A stretch of DNA of 64,000 nucleotides, taken from assembly GCA_030613505.1 (NCBI GenBank), contig JAUWLW010000002.1, forward strand, positions 1 to 64,000, given 5' to 3'. Both the position numbers and the translations under genes were made by a program. Position 1 is the first letter of the stretch; each line of letters opens with the position of its first letter. Of the stretch, positions 25,479 to 50,630 are shown in pieces. The notes below the pieces were generated by a model that was not told the origin of the DNA, did not search any database, and saw only the letters and a list, made by a program, of their open reading frames with translations. This DNA comes from Candidatus Zixiibacteriota bacterium (lineage in GTDB: Bacteria > RBG-13-66-14 > B26-G2 > WVWN01).

Positions 25479-26246
25479 CTAGCCGCGGGCGAGCAGCGCC
25501 GCGCCGAGGGCGCCGACGAACTGGGGCTCCGGCAGGACCTCCACGTCGCGGCCGAGCGCGGCGGCCAACGCCCGGGCGAAACCCCTGTTTAGCGCTACGC
25601 CCCCCGAGAGGACGTAGCGGCTCCCGCCCAACCGGGAGGCGAGCGACGATACGCGTTCCGCCACCGCGCGCAATACCCCCGCGCCGATGGCGGCCGGTTC
25701 TACGTCCTCGTGCAGCAGGCCGACGACTTCCGATTCGGCGAAGACGGTGCACATATTGTTGACCTTGGCCGCGTCGGGCCGGGACGCGTCGAGGGCCGCC
25801 AGCTCGAGCAGATCCATTTCCAGCGCCCGGGCCATGATCTCGAGAAAGCGGCCCGTCCCGGCGGCGCAGCGGTCGTTCATCGCGAACTCAGCCACGCCGC
25901 CGCGGCCGTTTACTCGTATAGCTTTAACGTCCTGGCCGCCGACGTCGACGACGGTGACGTCGCCGCCGACGTGTTCGAAGGCGCCGCGGGCGTGGCACAT
26001 TATTTCGGTTACGGCGCGGTCCGCGAAAGGTACGCGCGCGCGGCCGTAACCCGTACCGACGACGCGAGCCACCTCCGGTTCGGTTGCCCTTAATTCGGCC
26101 AAAGCCTCGTCGAAGGCTTTACGCGCCGCGACGGCGCCGGCGACGCCGGTGGGGAGGGCCGCTTTGGCGGCGGCCCTCCCGTCGTCGTTAATAACCACGC
26201 ACTTGGTCGCCAGCGACCCTACGTCTATGCCGGCGTAATAAGCCAT
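25479..26246 (-). CDS. 2-hydroxyacyl-CoA dehydratase-type activase (BcrAD/BadFG/HgdC family)
   Basis: A 255-residue ASKHA-fold ATPase that injects electrons into a partner iron-sulfur protein. Motifs: GIDVGSLATK (phosphate 1), VDVGGQDVKAI, NDRCAAGTGRF and NMCTVFAESEV. The two Cys of CAAG and CTVF bridge the subunit-interface [4Fe-4S] cluster of the dimer. It starts directly after the partner gene (26247). The pair resembles the double-cubane cluster protein and its reductase as well as HgdC/HgdB. Confidence 0.93.
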   Translation of the reverse strand: MAYYAGIDVGSLATKCVVINDDGRAAAKAALPTGVAGAVAARKAFDEALAELRATEPEVARVVGTGYGRARVPFADRAVTEIMCHARGAFEHVGGDVTVVDVGGQDVKAIRVNGRGGVAEFAMNDRCAAGTGRFLEIMARALEMDLLELAALDASRPDAAKVNNMCTVFAESEVVGLLHEDVEPAAIGAGVLRAVAERVSSLASRLGGSRYVLSGGVALNRGFARALAAALGRDVEVLPEPQFVGALGAALLARG

Positions 26247-27524
26247 TTACGAGCTCACTTGCTCGAGGAGCGCCTCGACGCGCGTTTTGAGCTGTCCCAC
26301 GTCGCCGTCGGAGTAGTCGGTCTCCAGAGCGAGCATCGGGATGCCGAGGTCGTCGGTGAACTTCTTGACGTTACCTTGTTCGACGAGGTACGGTGTGCAG
26401 AACGACAGCGTCGCGTGTATTATACCCTGGGCGCGGGAATTTTTGTACAGGTAATCGATGTCCTCGAGCCGTTGCTCGTTGGGCGTAAAGCAAGCGCAGT
26501 TGATCCCCATGTAGTGGTCGAGCAACGCCTCCTTCATCTCCTTCAGCGTCTTGGCGTCCTCGGCGACCGTATTCTTGTAATAACGGAAGCCGGTGCACAT
26601 CTCCTCGGCGACGACAGCGGCGCCGGAGGTTTCGACGACCTGGTGGACCTTCCAGTTGGGGATGGCCATCGGCGTCCCGGAGATCATTAGGCGGGGCGTC
26701 CCCTTGTCGAAGACGCCCTCGCCGACGGCGACCCGTTTCTCGAGCTCGTCCGCGACCTCGTTGGTCTTTTGCGTGAAGCGGTCCATGTCGTCGTAGAAAG
26801 ATATTTGCATAATGAGCAACGCGTCCTTACCAGAGATGGGAGCCGGGTCGTTCCAGCGGAGCTCGTGCACCCGCCTTATGGCGCGGCGTTTAGCGTTGAC
26901 CTTTTTGACGGCCGCGGCGAGGTTTTCCTCGGTGAGCTTATTGCCCGTAGTCTTCTCCATGGCGGCGATGAAGTCGTCGAGTTCGGCGCGCCACAGCTCG
27001 CGGTCCGCGGGGCCCTTTTTGTTGGGTACTTCCATCACGTATACGGGATGGATCTTGCCGAGCAGCTCGTACGCTTTCTTCTTGCCGTCGCACGTCGTCT
27101 CGCCCACCACGACGTCGGCGGACTCGAAGTAGGGGCAGATCTTACCGAGCTTGAAGCCGTAGAACGACTTGATGAGCGGGCACAGGTTGCGCGGTAGCTC
27201 GGCCTCGGCTATGGGAACCGAGAAGTCCGCGCCGGCGCATAGCCCAACGGCGACGCCGTCCAACGCGACGATGACCTCCTCCGGCACGAACAGGCAGAAC
27301 GTCCCGACCACCGTGCCGCCCTTCTCTTTATGGTCCAGGAGTTCCTTGATGCGGAGGCCGTGGACTTGCGAGATTACGAAGTCGTAGTACGCCATAGTTT
27401 CGGGGCGGTTGGGTTGGTCCGTGAACCACTCTAAGTAGAGTGACCCCAGCGCGCCCATAAGTACGTCGTGCTTTTCCAAGTCGAGCCCCAGGTCTTTCCA
27501 CATGTCGGTCCAGTCTTCGGCCAT
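26247..27524 (-). CDS. 2-hydroxyacyl-CoA dehydratase family / double-cubane cluster protein
   Basis: A 425-residue protein starting at MAEDWTDMWK, preceded by AGGAGG; the longer frame runs into the leader terminator. Cys residues lie in VGTFCLFVPEE, GKICPYFE, GETTCDGKK, EEMCTGFRYYK, GINCACFTPN and LSFCTPYL. The single-gene-plus-activase arrangement and the CxC in GINCACFTPN fit the double-cubane cluster proteins (YjiM/DCCP) better than two-subunit dehydratases. The reaction catalysed is unknown; low-potential reduction of a small substrate is the family theme. Expression is probably attenuated through the leader. Confidence 0.85.
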   Translation of the reverse strand: MAEDWTDMWKDLGLDLEKHDVLMGALGSLYLEWFTDQPNRPETMAYYDFVISQVHGLRIKELLDHKEKGGTVVGTFCLFVPEEVIVALDGVAVGLCAGADFSVPIAEAELPRNLCPLIKSFYGFKLGKICPYFESADVVVGETTCDGKKKAYELLGKIHPVYVMEVPNKKGPADRELWRAELDDFIAAMEKTTGNKLTEENLAAAVKKVNAKRRAIRRVHELRWNDPAPISGKDALLIMQISFYDDMDRFTQKTNEVADELEKRVAVGEGVFDKGTPRLMISGTPMAIPNWKVHQVVETSGAAVVAEEMCTGFRYYKNTVAEDAKTLKEMKEALLDHYMGINCACFTPNEQRLEDIDYLYKNSRAQGIIHATLSFCTPYLVEQGNVKKFTDDLGIPMLALETDYSDGDVGQLKTRVEALLEQVSS

Positions 27525-27540
27525 GATCGTCCTCCTATAT

Positions 27541-27575
27541 AAAAAACCAGCGTCCTTTTCCAACGGCGACGCTGG
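27541..27575 (-). terminator. Intrinsic terminator inside the leader of the dehydratase operon (attenuator)
   Basis: Minus strand CCAGCGTC-N13-GACGCTGG followed by six T, ending just before the AGGAGG of the dehydratase gene. Its position between promoter and gene implies conditional termination. Confidence 0.75.
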
Positions 27576-27762
27576 GCGAACATGGCCGAACGCGGTTCGG
27601 CACGTACGGGTGTTATGGATTACGCAACGCCCACGCGTCGTCTCCGTTTAAACGTCGTTGCGGACCCGAACCGGGTCTCGCGGCGCTTTTCGCGCCTCGT
27701 ACCTCACGTTTTCCAGAACGCGTGGGCCTTCACGAAGATCACCACCTTGAAAGAAATTTAGT
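27576..27762 (-). ncRNA. Structured 5' leader RNA, candidate riboswitch or peptide attenuator
   Basis: From the predicted transcription start, the leader folds into a long-range 10-bp stem GCCCACGCGU/ACGCGUGGGC (27718-27727 with 27629-27638). Within it are hairpins GGCGC-GAAAA-GCGCC and GACCCG-GUU-CGGGUC. A further hairpin with arms GCCGAAC/GUUCGGC lies between this stem and the terminator. A segment GGGCG at the end of the long stem could instead pair with CGCCC at the terminator foot. A short ORF near the 5' end (VIFVKAHAFWKT after AAGGTGG) is also possible. I could not match it to a known riboswitch class. Confidence 0.5.
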
Positions 27763-27767
27763 ACGGA

Positions 27768-27796
27768 ATCCTAAAAGAAATATCGGCGTTTGTCAA
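27768..27796 (-). promoter_or_regulatory. Sigma-70-type promoter of the dehydratase operon
   Basis: Minus strand TTGACA, 17-nt spacer, TAGGAT; the start falls near 27762, about 237 nt before the ATG. Confidence 0.7.
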
Positions 27797-27970: not shown

Positions 27971-28017
27971 ATTACCAAAGTAATAGAAATGAAAATAACT
28001 TATAAGGAGGCAGCGCG

Positions 28018-28635
28018 ATGAGGATTTTAGGGATCATATCTTTATGTGCTTTAGCTGCCGGCGCCGCGTTCGCGGGTTCCGTTACGGTCGGTAGCCCGAG
28101 CATAACGGCCGCGTACCCGTTCCGGGGGTGTTGAGGCGTCGATTCCGTACGGAGCCAGGACCTGGTTCTGAGCACTGACGCCGTCCCGGCGGGGACCGTT
28201 GTGAAGTGGGAGTGGTTCGCCAGCTCGACGGTAAGTGCCGGTACTTTCAACAATTTTAGCCTTAAACTCTGCCACACCAATAAGACGGCGCTCACGACCG
28301 ATTTCACCGGCAACTACGGCGGCAACACGCCGGTACAGGTCTATTACAAGAGCTCCGAGTACATCGCCGCCACGCCGAACACCTGGTTCGGCTTCGCGTT
28401 CGCTACCGGTTTCAACTACAACGGCAAAGACAACCTGATCGTCGAGGTCGAGTGGAGCGGCGACTCCGGCGGCTACGCGTACAACTACTGGAGCTCGGCC
28501 ACCGCGCGATGCATGTACAAGTACAACAGTTACTCGCCGCGGGTATATAATTACCTGCATTACATGCGTATTACGACCGGGTATTTGGGCGTTACGCCGA
28601 CGTCGCTGGGACGCGTGAAGTCGTTGTACCACTAA
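28018..28635 (+). CDS. Predicted secreted selenoprotein, GCUG type (in-frame UGA at residue 39)
   Basis: ATG at 28018 follows TAAGGAGG. Signal peptide MRILGIISLCALAAGAAFAG, then YPFRGC-U-GV with TGA at 28132-28134. The open frame continues through DAVPAGTVVKWEW, LKLCHTNKTALT, NYGGNTPVQVYY, NTWFGFAFA, YNGKDNLIVEV, LHYMRITT and the tag VTPTSLGRVKSLYH (205 residues). It has its own promoter and terminator, so it is a single-gene unit. The tag ends in His rather than Arg. The motif G-C-U-G is identical to the C-terminal redox centre of mammalian thioredoxin reductase, though here it is N-terminal. Confidence 0.87.
28152..28168 (+). promoter_or_regulatory. Predicted bacterial SECIS hairpin
   Basis: Stem GAGCCAG/CUGGUUC (7 bp, one G-U), loop GAC, loop 25 nt after the UGA. 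Confidence 0.75.
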
Positions 28636-28657
28636 TTTTCGACCATCCTCGGAAACG

Positions 28658-28686
28658 AAAAGGCCGGCCGCGAGGCCGGCTTTTTT
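28658..28686 (+). terminator. Intrinsic terminator
   Basis: AAGGCCGGC hairpin with GCCGGC arm and six T, after the 28018 gene. Confidence 0.85.
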
Positions 28687-28735
28687 CGTAGCGTCGCCGC
28701 CCGAGGCTGCGTTTCCCCCTTAAAGGCGTTTTTGC

Positions 28736-28764
28736 TTGACAACCGGCGGCTTACCGTTTAAAAT
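28736..28764 (+). promoter_or_regulatory. Sigma-70-type promoter of the 28831 selenoprotein gene
   Basis: TTGACA, 17-nt spacer, TAAAAT, near consensus. Confidence 0.75.
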
Positions 28765-28830
28765 ATTATAAGGAGAAAGGTTTTACTCAGCACATAAATA
28801 TTCCGGCTATATAATTTAGGAGGTACCGTG

Positions 28831-29445
28831 ATGAGAGTATTAGTCGTCGGTTGTCTGTGCGCTATGGCGGTGGGCGCGGCGTTCGCGGACCACTTCGTCA
28901 TCGGCAGCAAGGGCAGTATGGCGTACTACCCGTGGCGGGGCTGTTGAGGCGTCGACTCGGCACGGAGCCAGGACCTGGTTCTTAGTACGGACGCCATCCC
29001 GGGCGGCACCATCGAGAAATGGGAGTGGTGCTGTTATTCCAGCGACCCGGGGACGTACAACAACCTCTCCGTTAAGTTGTGTCACACCAAGGTCACCAAG
29101 CTCGTGACCAACTTCGCCGCCAACTTCGACGGCAACACGCCCCTCGAGGTATTTAAGAAGAGCTCCTACTACCTCAGCGGCAGCGCCGGTAACTGGTTCG
29201 GCTTCGCCTTCGATAAGAAATTCGAGTACAACGGCAAGGATAACCTGGTCGTCGACGTCTCCTGGAACGGCGACAGCGGCGGCACCTGCTACACCTATTG
29301 GAGCCCGGGGACGGCCCGCTGCGTCTACAACTATAACGGCGGTACGGTGTATTTGACCAACTACGTGCACTACATGCGCATTACGCTCGAGCCGAACGCC
29401 GTCGCGCCGACGTCGCTCGGTCGCGTCAAGTCGTTTTATAGGTAG
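28831..29445 (+). CDS. Predicted secreted selenoprotein, GCUG type (in-frame UGA at residue 39)
   Basis: ATG at 28831 follows TTTAGGAGG; a GTG one codon earlier is possible. Signal peptide MRVLVVGCLCAMAVGAAFAD, then YPWRGC-U-GV with TGA at 28945-28947. Continuation: DAIPGGTIEKWEW, a Cys-Cys pair directly after WEW, VKLCHTKVTKLV, NFDGNTPLEVF, GNWFGFAFD, YNGKDNLVVDV, VHYMRITLE and the tag VAPTSLGRVKSFYR (204 residues). It is closest to the 28018 gene, sharing the exact GVDS-x-RSQDLVLSTDA stretch after Sec, so the two look like a recent duplication. Own promoter and terminator. Confidence 0.87.
28965..28981 (+). promoter_or_regulatory. Predicted bacterial SECIS hairpin
   Basis: Stem GAGCCAG/CUGGUUC, loop GAC, loop 25 nt after the UGA. 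Confidence 0.75.
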
Positions 29446-29469
29446 GTTTTCGCGGGCGTGGCGAAAAGA

Positions 29470-29496
29470 ACGGGGCCCGGCGGGCCCCGTTTTTTA
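29470..29496 (+). terminator. Intrinsic terminator
   Basis: ACGGGGCCC-GGC-GGGCCCCGT with T-run after the 28831 gene. Confidence 0.85.
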
Positions 29497-29538
29497 TTCC
29501 GGCATGGCCGGTATTTCGCCGGCCGAGAGGGGTTGCGA

Positions 29539-29567
29539 TTGATTTTATAGGATAAATTTGGTAAACT
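29539..29567 (+). promoter_or_regulatory. Sigma-70-type promoter of the 29613 gene
   Basis: TTGATT, 17-nt spacer, TAAACT. Confidence 0.55.
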
Positions 29568-29612
29568 TTAGCGCGCGCGCGGGTAAGCCGTTAGCGCCGC
29601 CCGAGGGGAAGT

Positions 29613-30245
29613 ATGAAGACGAAAATTTTTGCAGCGATATGTTTCGTGACTTTGGCCGTCGGCGCCGCCTCGGCCGAAAAGGTCGTGATCGGCTACCGTA
29701 CGTACATGTCATCGTTCCCGTTTTACGGCTGTTGAAATACTCGAACGTCGCGGTGCCAGGACCTGGCGCTGAAAGAGGAAGGGCTGACGGCGGGGACCGT
29801 CACGCGGTGGGAGTGGTACGCGAGCTCGATGATTACCGTCGGCGGCTTCAAGGATTTCTGGGTCAAGTTGTGTCACACCTCGCGCGACAAGCTCGTCGCC
29901 GATTTCCAGAAGAACTACGACGGCAATAAACCGGTCCAGGTTTTCGCCGACGAAGAGCTGCGCATAAAGCCGCCGGCGTATACCTGGTTCGGCTTCGACT
30001 TCTCGCCCACGTTCGAGTACAACGGCGAGGACAACCTGATCGTCGAAGTGCACTGGAAGGAGCGGAGCGGCGCGCCGGGGGTCGTCACGTACTGGACGCC
30101 GAAGGAGGGCCGGTGCTGCATGTACGCCGGGCCGGTGCCGTGCGCACCGGCGGTCTTCGACTTCGTACACTACATGCGGGTGACGATATCGCCCGTCGCC
30201 GTGGCGCCGACGTCGCTGGGCCGCGTCAAGGCGGTATACCGTTAA
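29613..30245 (+). CDS. Predicted secreted selenoprotein, GCU type (in-frame UGA at residue 41)
   Basis: ATG at 29613 follows GAGGGGAAGT. Signal peptide MKTKIFAAICFVTLAVGAASA, then FPFYGC-U-NT with TGA at 29733-29735. Continuation: an extra Cys in SRCQDL, GLTAGTVTRWEW, VKLCHTSRDKLV, NYDGNKPVQVF, YTWFGFDFS, YNGEDNLIVEV, VHYMRVTI and the tag VAPTSLGRVKAVYR (210 residues). No terminator separates it from the Sec-less paralogue 31 bp downstream, so the two are probably co-transcribed and might form a mixed complex (inference). Confidence 0.85.
29753..29769 (+). promoter_or_regulatory. Predicted bacterial SECIS hairpin with compensatory changes
   Basis: Stem GUGCCAG/CUGGCGC, loop GAC. Both arms differ from the 28 kb copies yet still pair over 7 bp. 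Confidence 0.75.
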
Positions 30246-30276
30246 GGCCGCGCTTAAAGGCCGGGGGCAAACCGAT

Positions 30277-30924
30277 TTGCGGACGATATTGATATTAACC
30301 GTTTGCTTCGTCGCGGCCGCCGGCGCCGACCGTATCCTGGTGGGCGACCCGGCGCAGCGCATCAACTTCCCGTACTACGGCGGCGGCGGGTACGAGGCGA
30401 TGAGGTGTATGGAGGTCGTCCGCAAGACCGACGGCCTCGTCGCCGGCGAGATTAGGCGGTGGGAGTGGCAGTCCGGCGAGCTGGACCCAACGACGGGAAA
30501 GTTTTATAAGTTCAAGTTGCGGCTCTGCCACACCACGCGTGCGGACCTGGCGCCTCCCTTCAACGCCAACTACGAGGGCCGCACCCCCGCGGAAGTCTTC
30601 AACGCCGACCCCGCGACCATCTCGACGCGGATTCGGGAGTGGTTCGGCTTCGATTGCAAGCCCGCTTTTCGGTACAACGGCTCGGACAACTTGCTGGTCG
30701 AGGTTTGGTGGGAGGGCGACGACGACGGCGGCGGCCTTGTCTTCACCGCCGACGTGCGCGAACAACAACGCTGCCTGCTCGCCTACCGGAAGGACGGCGT
30801 CGCGGAGTACGGCTATCCCAACCAGGGCAAGGCCTTCAACTGGCTCCACTTCATGCGAATAACGCTCGAGCCCGACGCCGTGTGGCCGACGTCGCTCGGG
30901 CGCGTTAAGGCCGTCTACCGGTAA
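30277..30924 (+). CDS. Sec-less paralogue of the secreted selenoprotein family (GGGG in place of GCU)
   Basis: Start TTG at 30277 (after GGGGG) gives signal peptide (M)RTILILTVCFVAAAGAD and 215 residues without an internal stop. Where relatives have F-P-F-Y-G-C-U, this reads FPYYGGGGYE: both Cys and Sec are replaced by Gly. The rest is intact: RRWEW, LRLCHTTRADLA, NYEGRTPAEVF, REWFGFDCK, YNGSDNLLVEVWW, LHFMRITLE and tag VWPTSLGRVKAVYR. The nucleotides corresponding to the SECIS hairpin no longer pair. It probably keeps the binding or structural role and has lost the redox centre. Confidence 0.85.
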   Translation: MRTILILTVCFVAAAGADRILVGDPAQRINFPYYGGGGYEAMRCMEVVRKTDGLVAGEIRRWEWQSGELDPTTGKFYKFKLRLCHTTRADLAPPFNANYEGRTPAEVFNADPATISTRIREWFGFDCKPAFRYNGSDNLLVEVWWEGDDDGGGLVFTADVREQQRCLLAYRKDGVAEYGYPNQGKAFNWLHFMRITLEPDAVWPTSLGRVKAVYR

Positions 30925-31044
30925 CCGGTTCTAAGACGGCGCGGTTATACGCTATCCGCGGGACGGATTATTTTTAACTTCAACCGACCCCCGGTACGCG
31001 TGAAAGACGTACCCGTTGTCGGCGAGAAGCGGCATAAGGTCCAC

Positions 31045-31073
31045 TTGACAAGTAACGTTGATTACCTTAAAAT
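31045..31073 (+). promoter_or_regulatory. Sigma-70-type promoter of the 31126 gene
   Basis: TTGACA, 17-nt spacer, TAAAAT. The rest of 30925-31125 shows no gene. Confidence 0.75.
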
Positions 31074-31125
31074 TTTTAACGGCTCGAACGTGACGAAAAA
31101 GGGTCAAACCCAAGGGGGTTGATTT

Positions 31126-31767
31126 ATGCGAAAAGTAGTAATAACGAGTCTCGGCGTCTTGGCCGCGGGCGCGGCCCTGGCGGGCCAAGTTATGGTCGGC
31201 GGCCAAGGGACCGCCGTGAATTACCCGTATTGCGGCAGTTGAGACAACGCTTATCGGGGCCAGGCGCTGGTCCTGAAAACGGACGCCGTTCCCGCGGGCG
31301 ATATTACCAAGTGGGAGTGGTACGCTTCCCAGAACCAACGGCCGGGCGATTTCAATAAATTCAGCCTTAAACTTTGCCACACCTCCCTGACGACCCTCAC
31401 CGATACCTACACCAAGAATTACGACGGCAAGACGCCGGTCCAGGTTTACTACCGCGACCCGGTGCGCATCGCCGCTACGCCTTTCCAGTGGTTCGGCTTC
31501 GCATTCGACAAGGCGTTCGCGTACAACGGCACCGACAACCTGCTCTTCGAGGTGTGGTGGGTGGGCGATAACAACGGCAACGCGTACACCTACTGGATGC
31601 CCAAGACAGGCCGGTACGTGTATTCGTATATCAAGGGGTCGACGCCTTATAACGGGTACCCCGACAAGGGGCTAGTGGTGAACTACCTTCACTACATGCG
31701 GATTACCATTTCCGCGAGCGCTGTCGAGGCATCGTCGCTGGGTCGCGTCAGGGCGCTTTATCGTTAG
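31126..31767 (+). CDS. Predicted secreted selenoprotein, CGSU type (in-frame UGA at residue 39)
   Basis: ATG at 31126 follows AAGGGGG. Signal peptide MRKVVITSLGVLAAGAALAG, then YPYCGS-U-DN with TGA at 31240-31242. The residue before Sec is Ser, but Cys stands at -3, giving C-x-x-U. One residue is deleted between Sec and the LVLKTDA strand. Continuation: LKLCHTSLTTLT, NYDGKTPVQVYY, FQWFGFAFD, YNGTDNLLFEVWW, LHYMRITI and the tag VEASSLGRVRALYR (213 residues). Own promoter and terminator. Confidence 0.86.
31257..31273 (+). promoter_or_regulatory. Predicted bacterial SECIS hairpin with compensatory changes
   Basis: Stem GGGCCAG/CUGGUCC, loop GCG, loop 22 nt after the UGA because of the one-codon deletion. 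Confidence 0.72.
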
Positions 31768-31797
31768 GCCGGAACTTAGGTTTAACTATGAGACTCA

Positions 31798-31821
31798 AGC
31801 CGGCCTATAGGCCGGTTTTTT
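31798..31821 (+). terminator. Intrinsic terminator
   Basis: AAGCCGGCC-TATA-GGCCGG followed by six T, after the 31126 gene. Confidence 0.8.
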
Positions 31822-31846
31822 CTCGCGGTAGCGCCGATATATCCGC

Positions 31847-31875
31847 TTGACACGCGCGCGAAGACGGTTTAGTAT
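31847..31875 (+). promoter_or_regulatory. Sigma-70-type promoter of the 31911-32586 unit
   Basis: TTGACA, 17-nt spacer, TAGTAT. Confidence 0.72.
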
Positions 31876-31910
31876 GAAAGGGCCTAAGGGCAACGTCGGG
31901 AGGTCGAGCT

Positions 31911-32567
31911 ATGCTACGGAAATTGGTAATCCTCTTATGTGCGGCCGCGGCCGGCGCCTCGGCGGCGCAGTTCGTCGTCGGCAGCGCGGAGACGGCCGTC
32001 AAGGCGCCGTTCTCGGCGTGTTGAGGCATCGAGGCCTACCGGTACCAGGGCCTGGTGCTGAAGACGGACGCCATCCCCGCCGGCACGATTACGCGGTGGG
32101 AGTGGTACGCCGCGTCGGGGACGGGCAGCGTACGGCATGCTCTACTTAGCAACTTCTCCATAAAAATCTGCCACACGTCGTTCAACGCTCTCACCACGCC
32201 GTTCGCGGCCAATTATGACGGCAATACGCCGGTGACGGTCTTCTCCGCCAACCCCGTAAGGGTCGACCCGGAGTACAATAACTGGTTCGGTTTCGACTGC
32301 AAGCCTACCTTCGCCTACAATGGGACCGACAATTTCCTCGTCGAGACGTGGTGGGACGGCGGCAACGACGGCGGCCCCAACTGTTGGATGAAGTACGTCC
32401 TGACCTCGAGCCGGGCGTGCATCGCCTCGCGGGTGCGCGGCGTCTCCCAGCACGGCTACCCGAACGGCGGCAAGGTCGAGGGCTACAACATGTACATGCG
32501 CATAACGATGGGCGGAGCGACCGTCGGCTCGAGCTCGCTGGGCCGAGTTAAAGCGCTCTATCGGTAA
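31911..32567 (+). CDS. Predicted secreted selenoprotein, ACUG type (in-frame UGA at residue 38)
   Basis: ATG at 31911 follows GGGAGGTCG. Signal peptide MLRKLVILLCAAAAGASA, then APFSAC-U-GI with TGA at 32022-32024. Continuation: LVLKTDAIPAGTITRWEW, IKICHTSFNALT, NYDGNTPVTVF, NNWFGFDCK, YNGTDNFLVETWW, MYMRITMG and the tag VGSSSLGRVKALYR (218 residues). The FDCK segment with an extra Cys is shared with the Sec-less paralogue. The next family gene starts 18 bp later, so the two are one transcript. Confidence 0.86.
32042..32058 (+). promoter_or_regulatory. Predicted bacterial SECIS hairpin with compensatory changes
   Basis: Stem GUACCAG/CUGGUGC, loop GGC, loop 25 nt after the UGA. Confidence 0.75.
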
Positions 32568-32585
32568 TTCGGAGGAGGCGGTTTT

Positions 32586-33245
32586 ATGATGAGGACGACC
32601 GCGATCGCGGCGCTGTTCCTTATGGCGGTGTCCTTTGCCGGCGCGGACCTGGTAATCATAGGGAAAGGCCTCGGGGCCCCCGGCGGCTCGACGCCCTGGT
32701 CCGGCTGTTGAGGCGTGTCGGCGCGTAGGCACCAGGTATTGGTGCTCAAATCGGACGGCCTTCCCGCGGGTACGATAACCAAATGGGAGTGGAACGCCGC
32801 CCGCGATTTGCTCGCCGGCGGTTTCTACAACTTCAAACTGACGTTCTGTCATACCTCCCTTACGGCGTTAACCGACACGTACGTCAATAATTACGACGGG
32901 AAAACGCCCGTTACGGTCTACAGCCGCAACCCGGTGAACATCCCTACGGTACCGTCGAACCAGTGGTTCGGCTTCGGCTTCGATAAACCGTTCGCCTACA
33001 ACGGCCGCGACAACCTCGTCGTCGAGGTATGGTGGGTAAATGACACCAACGGCGGCGGCAACACGCAGTGGAACTTCCCGGTGAACGGCCGCTGTTGCTT
33101 CTCGTATATCGTGAACGGTAACCCACAAAGCGGTTACCCGGACAAAGGCCGCGTCTCGTACTTCATGCACTACATGCGCGCGACGGTTTCGCCCTCGGCA
33201 GTGGCGCCGACGTCCTTGGGACGCGTTAAAGCTTTGTTCGGTTAA
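32586..33245 (+). CDS. Predicted secreted selenoprotein, GCUG type (in-frame UGA at residue 42)
   Basis: ATG at 32586 (a second ATG follows at once) comes after GGAGGAGG. Signal peptide MMRTTAIAALFLMAVSFAGA, a slightly longer linker, then TPWSGC-U-GV with TGA at 32709-32711. Continuation: DGLPAGTITKWEW, LTFCHTSLTALT, NYDGKTPVTVY, NQWFGFGFD, YNGRDNLVVEVWW, Cys-Cys in GRCCFSY, MHYMRATV and the tag VAPTSLGRVKALFG (219 residues). The tag ends in Gly. No terminator follows; the next hairpin lies after the decayed remnant. Confidence 0.86.
32729..32745 (+). promoter_or_regulatory. Predicted bacterial SECIS hairpin with compensatory changes
   Basis: Stem GCACCAG/UUGGUGC, loop GUA, loop 25 nt after the UGA. 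Two base pairs differ in both arms from the 28 kb copies. Confidence 0.75.
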
Positions 33246-48855: not shown

Positions 48856-49209
48856 TGGAGGCGGCGGGAATCGAACCCGCGTCCGGAAGTGCGGCTGCCA
48901 GGCCTCTACACGCTTGTCCCGCGTATTAATCTCGCGTAAGGCTTGGCCCGCGGGCGGGTCGGCCTTACGCCAGCCCCCTTGAGAATTTTCGTCCTCGGCG
49001 GAAGGGGCCCCCGCTTTGGCTTATCCCGCTATTCCGACGGCCTACCGGGGCGCCGCGGGAAGGCTCCGCCGGCGGCCGGCTCGCTAACTAATTAGCAAGC
49101 GTACGCGTAGTTATCCGCGTTTATTTTTCCCCGCCTTTGTAACGCGGTGACGGGAAGCCGCGACGTGCCACCTGGTTACCGTCCACCCCCGTCGAAACCG
49201 ATCGCCCCC
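48856..49209 (-). ncRNA. ssrA: Transfer-messenger RNA (tmRNA)
   Basis: The 5' end GGGGGCG pairs with 3' CGCCUCC (discriminator A, CCA not encoded) as an acceptor stem. The 5' region GAUCGGUUUCGACGGGGGU and the 3' T-arm GGUUCGAUUCCCGCC are the conserved tRNA-like parts. Between them lie pseudoknot-like GC blocks and a tag ORF whose best frame reads NADNYAYAC then UAA, the usual DNYA core but ending in Cys instead of Ala-Ala. Length about 354 nt is normal. It rescues stalled ribosomes together with SmpB. Confidence 0.93.
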
Positions 49210-50030: not shown

Positions 50031-50630
50031 ATGGAGAAGCTTACGAACAGGCAGCGCGAGGTTTTGGCCGCGGTGCGGGAGTTGACCGGCCGGCACGGCT
50101 TCCCGCCGACGGTGCGGGAGCTGGCGGAGTTTCTGGAGATAGGGCCCCGCGCGGCCTTCGAGCACCTGGCGGCGCTGGTCCGCAAGGGGCATCTGGAGAA
50201 GGAGGACGGCAGGCCGCGGGCGCTGGCGGTCGCGGGGTACGTGCCGGCGCTCGAGCTGCCGGTGGTGGGCCGGGTAGCCGCCGGGCCGCCCATCACGGCG
50301 CTGGAGGAGGCCGAGGAGACGATGGCGGTCGACCGCTCGCTGGGCGCCGCGGAGGGGGACTTCCTGCTGCGCGTCAAGGGCGACAGCATGGATGGCGAGC
50401 ACATCGTCGACGGCGACATGGTGATCGTGAGGCCGCAGCCGGTGGCGGAGAACGGCGCCGTCGTCGTGGTGTTGGTGGGCGACGAGGCCACGGTAAAGCG
50501 GATGTACCTGCGCGGCGACCGCGTCATCCTGCGCGCCGCCAACCCGGCCTATGCGGACCTGGTGCTGGGCGAAGAAGAGGACGTGGCGGTGATAGGCCGC
50601 GTCGTGGGCGTTATACGGCGTTATAAGTAG
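50031..50630 (+). CDS. lexA: SOS repressor LexA
   Basis: ATG at 50031 has AGAGG 8 nt upstream; earlier GTG/ATG codons (50022, 50025) are too close to it. A 199-residue protein: N-terminal winged helix (LTNRQREVLAAVRELTGRHGFPPTVRELAEFL, in part), cleavage site Ala-Gly in GRVAAGPP, catalytic Ser in KGDSMDGEHI and Lys in GDEATVKRMY. It represses DNA-damage genes until RecA-stimulated self-cleavage. A Y-family polymerase follows in the same operon. Confidence 0.95.
   Translation: MEKLTNRQREVLAAVRELTGRHGFPPTVRELAEFLEIGPRAAFEHLAALVRKGHLEKEDGRPRALAVAGYVPALELPVVGRVAAGPPITALEEAEETMAVDRSLGAAEGDFLLRVKGDSMDGEHIVDGDMVIVRPQPVAENGAVVVVLVGDEATVKRMYLRGDRVILRAANPAYADLVLGEEEDVAVIGRVVGVIRRYK

Follow-up and report, generated by a model that had tools for sequence, protein, structure and literature searches.

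Genes and leader at the DCCP locus

The DNA analyzed here, referred to below as the window, is a 64,000-nt stretch (positions 1 to 64,000) of contig JAUWLW010000002.1 from a Candidatus Zixiibacteriota bacterium. Its minus strand carries a gene for a double-cubane cluster protein (DCCP), followed by the gene for an acyl-CoA dehydratase-type activase, the reductase partner of DCCP (Table 1). DCCP, a reductase that uses ATP, carries a double-cubane cluster; to our knowledge, its physiological substrate is not known.

A structured RNA leader lies upstream of the DCCP gene on the same strand. The initial annotation had described a promoter, about 237 nt of structured RNA with a long-range stem, internal hairpins (A and B below) and a 7-bp hairpin, and a terminator ending at the Shine-Dalgarno site, and each of these was found in place. 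The sigma-70-type promoter agrees with the consensus at 10 of 12 positions, and a −35 box of the TTGAC type is retained in the six aligned leader copies described below; the surrounding 16-kb region holds 12 promoter-like sites, compared with 3.4 expected. The 238-nt minus-strand transcript has a predicted folding energy of −96.2 kcal/mol (z = −3.25), and 1 of 200 shuffled sequences was equally stable. The plus strand folds more weakly (z = −1.86 and −1.80); the feature lies on the minus strand. The intrinsic terminator, which sits immediately 5′ of the AGGAGG preceding the DCCP gene, was not reported by a simple terminator scan because its loop exceeds the limit of 8 set in that scan.

Table 1. 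Features of the leader and its surroundings, in coordinates of the window
Feature	Position	Strand	Basis or detail
Sigma-70-type promoter TTGACA-N17-TAGGAT	27768..27796	−	TTGACA 27796-27791, 17-nt spacer, TAGGAT 27773-27768
Ribosome-binding site of leader ORF, AAGGTGG	27742..27748	−	AGGAGG elsewhere in the genus (five copies)
Leader ORF GTG AAG GCC CAC GCG TTC TGG AAA ACG TGA (VKAHAFWKT-UGA)	27704..27733	−	Kept in 6/6 genus copies
Segment 1, part of the ORF and partner of segment 2	27718..27726	−	1:2 energy matched by 0/300 shuffles, window copy
Long-range stem (segment 1:segment 2)	27726-27718 with 27638-27630	−	Predicted fold
Proposed selenocysteine (Sec) codon UGA	27706-27704	−	End of leader ORF
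Hairpin A, GGCGC-GAAAA-GCGCC	27682..27696	−	Fold and genus alignment
Hairpin B, SECIS-like, GACCC-GGUUC-GGGUC	27663..27677	−	Loop begins after 31 nt from UGA
Segment 2, partner of segment 1 or (antiterminator) segment 3	27628..27645	−	Duplex energies, masked folding
TAA closing the UGA read-through frame	27620..27622	−	Just beyond segment 2
7-bp hairpin between segments 2 and 3	27585..27601	−	Fold
Segment 3, terminator 5′ arm or segment 2 partner	27565..27578	−	Fold, duplex energies
Intrinsic terminator CCAGCGUC...GACGCUGG-U6	27541..27575	−	8 pairs, 97.9% paired in 6 copies
AGGAGG after the terminator	27536-27531	−	
DCCP gene	26247..27524	−	NF040772 481 bits, cut-off 350; PDB 7yyl/6eno E about 1e-144
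Acyl-CoA dehydratase-type activase gene	25479..26246	−	TIGR00241 241 bits; PF01869
Apparent selenoprotein UGAs	28132, 28945, 29733, 31240, 32022, 32709 (within 28006-33245)	+	In-frame UGA and hairpin
Apparent selenoprotein UGAs	18583, 17913	−	In-frame UGA and hairpin

The leader precedes DCCP genes and selenium transport operons

When 98 relatives were searched at the DNA level, the leader turned up in the genus's three other genomes, two of which, G002 (CP070633.1) and G003 (WVWN01), carry a second copy. The first copies stand ahead of DCCP, and the second ahead of a different operon with a porin-like gene and a seleno_YedE transporter gene (490.8 bits in G002 and 486.0 bits in the other genome; cut-off, 200), and that of G002 also contains a cysteine-desulfurase family gene (TIGR01977) and a PF11823 Se/S carrier gene. 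Across the phylum (Coatesbacteria, going by the title of one record), covered here by 14 genomes, there are 11 leader copies, which lie before all eight DCCP genes and all three seleno-YedE loci found; the YedE operon of family f2 is among the latter.

The stems are kept in these relatives. Within the genus, 98.2% of alignment cells are paired over 28 pairs, four of them with two-sided changes, a level that 3 of 500 shuffles reached. The helix between segments 1 and 2 (nine pairs) is 100% paired in the six sequences and has one pair with a two-sided change, and an intrinsic terminator stands ahead of the gene in all six. The 7-bp hairpin is not kept in the second copies; at its place, the second copy of G003 (L013:2321-2531) has an extra terminator-like hairpin, GCCGAC-GCTT-GTCGGC, followed by six T residues. 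Between families, the sequence outside the GG-loop hairpin (hairpin B) and the end of the leader ORF turns over, and a pairing between the ORF and a downstream stretch persists. The f5 DCCP genes are 54 to 64% identical, and their leaders share parts but little overall similarity; from one f5b leader to the other, the pairing GAUGUACC:GGUACGUC is replaced by GAUGCACC:GGUGCGUC.

Wider searches with the leader itself added no copy that convinced us. A covariance model of the 5′ domain, run against 41 relatives, returned the six genus copies and three matches with E values of 0.2 to 0.4 that we took as chance; a pattern scan of genome contigs gave four stretches, all in two genomes already covered; and a joined query of the f5a, f5b and f2 leaders recovered from the phylum the known copies and one chance-level match (G007; E = 0.006). 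The initial annotation could match the leader to no known class, and Rfam likewise gave no match at the gathering score. A permissive Rfam search yielded two chance-level matches (E = 0.63 and 2.5), and it also misses the coding SECIS hairpins nearby, so the absence of an Rfam match carries little weight.

According to PMC10418091, DCCP is provisionally linked to selenium metabolism, and two gene neighborhoods agree with such a link. The yjiM-yjiL-ytiA operon of E. coli K-12 (L144) encodes a DCCP, an activase and a PF11823 Se/S carrier (YjiM, at 531 bits, is above the double-cubane equivalog cut-off; YtiA matches PF11823 Se_S_carrier), which suggests that this operon is selenium related, and in G271 the DCCP and seleno_YedE genes lie about 3 kb apart. 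At L091 (G259), a YedE-family match has one internal in-frame TGA and is possibly a selenoprotein transporter or a pseudogene.

A short leader ORF ends in Thr-UGA, and its frame stays open beyond the UGA

A short ORF had been named in the initial annotation as an alternative sensor. The ORF proved to be conserved, with another start: it begins at the GTG at 27733 (VKAHAFWKT). The earlier GTG, which would give VIFVKAHAFWKT, was rejected because a single base between the two GTGs is missing from each of the five remaining genus copies, so that the longer frame is broken there. The Shine-Dalgarno sequence, start, stop and overlap with segment 1 are all conserved at the sequence level in the six genus copies.

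Each of the 11 phylum leaders has a ribosome-binding site and an ORF of 5 to 10 codons with threonine as the last codon and UGA as the stop. Together with two leaders from outside the phylum (G064 and G337, described below), Thr-UGA ends the ORF in 13 of 13 leaders, and in none of them does a TAA or TAG occur in frame from the first UGA to hairpin B. A second in-frame UGA is present in 7 of the 13, those with the longest distance from UGA to hairpin B. In the window, read-through would yield VKAHAFWKTUGTRREKRRETRFGSATTFKRRRRVGVA*. The read-through stop lies 5 to 11 nt beyond segment 2 in all six genus copies (6 to 9% of shuffles per copy), and this position holds although a 1-nt indel shifts the frame there in two of them.

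Hairpin B resembles a bacterial SECIS element

In an alignment of 12 leaders, one of which (G064) had been picked by a rule requiring such a hairpin, 98.3% of the cells of hairpin B are paired, four of its five pairs show two-sided changes, and 0 of 500 shuffles scored as high. Its loop starts with GG in all 12 aligned leaders and in 13 of 13 overall, the G064 and G337 hairpins having been found with a rule that demanded GG. The bacterial SECIS criteria given in PMC13188914 are a loop of 3 to 9 nt, an upper stem of 4 to 16 bp, a G in the first two loop positions, 16 to 37 nt from the UGA to the apical loop and a minimum free energy (MFE) of −7.5 kcal/mol or lower. The predicted GG-loop hairpin fits most of these. 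Loop and stem agree with them in all 13 leaders, with the loop taken as 4 to 5 nt and the stem as at least 4 bp (the G004 stem has 4 bp, a bulge and 3 bp). Measured from the nearer UGA, the spacing to the loop is 20 to 31 nt in 11 of 13 leaders, within the published range: 31 nt in the six genus copies and 20 to 24 nt in five others. In the two f5a leaders it is 38 nt, one above the range, and the first UGAs of the seven two-UGA leaders lie 47 to 68 nt from the loop. The 14- to 15-nt core alone reaches the MFE limit in 7 of 13 leaders and, with 8-nt flanks, in 13 of 13 (−9.1 kcal/mol or lower).

The phylum, judged from its gene content, decodes selenocysteine. tRNA-Sec scored above the cut-off in 11 of the 14 genomes, SelB was found in 13 of the 14, and SelD, recovered from 13 genomes, carries a single in-frame UGA in each of them. 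With this machinery present in almost every one of the 14 genomes, testing the leader against the presence or absence of SelB, SelC and SelD was uninformative. The SelD hairpins of G000 to G004 have GG at 20 to 22 nt after the UGA; for SelD of f5, G005 and G006, our simple hairpin rule gave no comparable hairpin.

The most telling observation comes from the window itself, which encodes eight members of a secreted-protein family with an in-frame UGA, mostly after Cys (...GC-UGA...), followed by a stable hairpin, for example CGGAGCCA[GGACC]TGGTTCTG; they are apparently extracellular selenoproteins. The simple rule places a loop starting with GG after 20 to 23 nt in six of the eight, compared with the 31 nt of the genus leaders, in which hairpin A lies in between. 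Six of the eight genes adjoin the leader and DCCP operon, in the divergent direction.

A fixed rule sets the leader apart from control regions

We applied a strict rule that asked for a Shine-Dalgarno-led ORF of 4 to 25 codons ending in Thr-UGA, at least 12 codons of read-through, and a hairpin with a GG loop and five contiguous pairs 12 to 45 nt after an in-frame UGA. Among 182 control regions (the 320 nt before every ORF of at least 150 codons in the window and in SelB, SelD and tRNA-Sec loci), it gave one match, the target leader itself. With 720 nt, it was passed by 10 of 30 DCCP loci (all 8 in the phylum and 2 of 22 others, G064 and G337, which belong to one genus) and by 1 of 30 YedE loci (L079; 1 of 27 outside the phylum); because the rule was written after the leaders had been seen and the region lengths differ, this comparison is a guide rather than a formal test. 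L079, which lies before YedE, is a single case. Both second copies pass the strict rule; a bulge in the stem makes the f2 leader fail it. A search for SelB at an E value of 1e-50 was positive in G064 and negative in G337. Looser scans also returned L102, L112 and L120 before DCCP; these were discounted, as 1 to 5 of 40 shuffles matched in this GC-rich DNA.

Predicted folding of the leader as a switch

Calculated duplex energies in the window copy are −23.6 kcal/mol for segment 1 with segment 2, −23.4 kcal/mol for segment 2 with segment 3, and −15.7 kcal/mol for segment 3 with segment 4. The pairing of GGGCG with CGCCC that had been noted earlier as a possible switch turned out to be the outer end of the longer 2:3 duplex. 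These predicted pairings and the placement of the stop are the arrangement of a classical attenuator. With a wide mask, in which ribosomes are taken to cover everything from the 5′ end to 12 nt past the UGA, the computed probability of the terminator was 0.99 for the free RNA, 0.03 with a ribosome at the UGA, and 0.99 with a ribosome past segment 2. When only a single ribosome footprint was masked, the corresponding values were 0.99, 0.24 and 0.89, and of 200 shuffles of the middle of the window copy none switched fully and 7 did so loosely.

None of the five remaining genus copies switches with the single-footprint mask. G003a switches with the wide mask only; in G001, G002a and G003b the terminator probability stays at 0.76 to 0.97 with a wide-masked ribosome at the UGA; and in G002b it is 0.05 in that series even when the RNA is free. 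Before segment 4 exists, the 2:3 duplex forms in all six copies with a ribosome at the UGA and in none with a ribosome past segment 2, and in G002a and G003b this pairing is no better than in shuffled sequences. The mutual exclusion of 2:3 and 3:4 is clear in the window copy and G003a and partial or absent elsewhere. The modeled folding supports a switch clearly for the window copy and less so for the others.

Leaders of other families are built differently. The f5 DCCP ribosome-binding site sits in a hairpin, and the f5 leader seems to end in this hairpin instead of a terminator; thermodynamic modeling of translational switching gave at most a change from 0.23 to 0.53, in one leader, and little or none in the others. 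For the f2 leader, folding identified no expression platform. In G064 and G337, the GG-loop hairpin lies directly 5′ of the DCCP ribosome-binding site, and a ribosome reading through with Sec would, we infer, pass over the start of DCCP. We regard the f5, f2 and G064/G337 forms as weaker cases and gave them less weight.

A proposed selenocysteine attenuator and its alternatives

Since the leader stands before selenium-uptake genes in relatives, it probably senses selenium, through stopping versus read-through at the UGA. We consider it likely that the leader is a selenocysteine attenuator, on when ribosomes stop at the UGA and off when they insert Sec. Ribosomes would load at the strong binding site and translate the very short ORF. 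With charged Sec-tRNA and SelB scarce, they would stop at the UGA and, with further ribosomes loading behind them, occupy segment 1. This would leave segment 2 free to pair with segment 3, no terminator would form, and the operon would be on. With Sec plentiful, SelB would dock on hairpin B, Sec would be inserted, and the ribosome would reach the stop beside segment 2; segment 2 would be blocked, segment 3 would fold into the terminator, and the operon would be off. Without translation, the 1:2 stem and the terminator would both form, also leaving it off. The genes under control, those for DCCP and its activase in the window and the seleno-YedE operons of relatives, would serve to acquire or mobilize selenium, and the polarity that we infer, on when selenium is poor and off on Sec insertion, fits genes for selenium uptake. 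What counts against the selenocysteine attenuator is the long spacing, the unconserved peptide after the UGA, the uneven 2:3 pairing and the small number of qualifying loci outside the phylum.

The long spacing (31 nt in the genus and 38 nt in f5a) would pose no difficulty if, in the manner described for the E. coli selAB leader, SelB bound hairpin B, the best covarying part of the leader, as a regulatory SECIS-like element. The leader UGA would then never be decoded as Sec, and control of the operon would lie with the bound complex instead of a moving ribosome. We think this rather unlikely, as it does not explain why the ribosome-binding site and ORF are kept, why all 13 leaders have Thr-UGA, why second UGAs fall in frame, why the frame is open and its stop follows segment 2, or why the ORF pairs with segment 2.

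Alternatively, the UGA might be a plain stop in an ordinary leader-peptide attenuator whose short peptide, HA[FY]WKT, lets the ribosome respond to a drug, to an amino acid or to the activity of a release factor. This peptide is retained within the genus with some synonymous changes, and the 1:2, 2:3 and 3:4 layout is the classical one. Between families, however, the peptides are wholly different (VKAHAFWKT, MLRLRRLGHT, MYHRT and MLFLWRKGKT), whereas the UGA and the GG-loop hairpin are constant, and the leader tracks selenium genes; we judge this reading unlikely.

The initial annotation had seen a riboswitch or attenuator layout. Of that reading the attenuator layout stands, as do the terminator, the switch pairing and the short ORF in the role of sensor; a ligand riboswitch is not supported, given the lack of an Rfam match and the sequence turnover between families. 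A small-molecule riboswitch of an undescribed class would account for a compact structured leader with a terminator but not for a conserved core that consists of an ORF end and one hairpin, and with no Rfam match above chance level (a weak point, for the reason given above) we hold it to be very unlikely. That the read-through ORF encodes a small functional selenoprotein, with regulation secondary, is hardly credible: the frame is open past the UGA to hairpin B in 13 of 13 leaders, but conservation of the post-UGA peptide at the protein level was looked for in the leader copies and not found, indels shift the frame within the genus, and the ORF lies directly before a terminator in all six genus copies.

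The trp and his leaders are ribosome-mediated transcription attenuators of amino-acid operons. The window leader shares with them a short leader ORF, 1:2, 2:3 and 3:4 segments, an intrinsic terminator and a stop by segment 2. It differs in that the codon doing the sensing would be a UGA decoded as selenocysteine, which needs a SECIS-like hairpin, and in that the alternative to reading would be stopping, not stalling. The E. coli selAB leader is said, from the work of Thanbichler and Boeck, to have a SECIS-like element that is bound by SelB and used for control. In both cases the Sec machinery would exert control through a SECIS-like hairpin of the 5′ leader; unlike the selAB element, the window hairpin follows a UGA within a leader ORF, is combined with a predicted terminator switch and stands before DCCP or YedE operons. 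Like the SECIS elements of selenoprotein genes, it is a GG-loop hairpin downstream of an in-frame UGA, with the loop type of the window's own selenoproteins, but it lies outside a protein gene and, in the genus, at a longer spacing. The first reading did not recognize the UGA stop with its SECIS-like hairpin, the placement of the leader before selenium transport operons, or selenocysteine decoding as the likely signal.

On balance, we lean slightly toward a broader proposal, that these leaders form an undescribed class of switch in which charged Sec-tRNA is measured by stopping versus read-through at leader UGAs, the SECIS lying at more than the usual distance, which would restrict read-through to times of plentiful Sec. 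In Coatesbacteria the class would control DCCP and the import of selenium; in at least one other phylum it would act on DCCP in a translational form, with the read-through frame running over the DCCP start. It would place DCCP in selenium acquisition. Literature searches, mostly of open-access papers judged by their titles and the openings of their abstracts, together with passages of PMC10418091, PMC13188914 and PMC1088965, turned up no description of a selenocysteine attenuator or leader, and those on DCCP with selenium turned up none of such a leader. If the proposal is true, the recoding of UGA as selenocysteine also serves as a sensor, a direct cis-acting readout of selenium status, and DCCP gains a testable physiological setting in selenium metabolism.

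Other features of the window

Two proteins in the window lack the in-frame UGA: one paralogue of the secreted family (30274-30924) and one minus-strand protein near 50548. Many secreted proteins, in the window family and at L033 in G002, share the C-terminal motif SLGRVK(A/S/T)(L/F/V)(Y/F/H)R, perhaps a protein-sorting tag. The window also carries a tmRNA gene on the minus strand (48856-49209) with the tag peptide ADNYAYAC.
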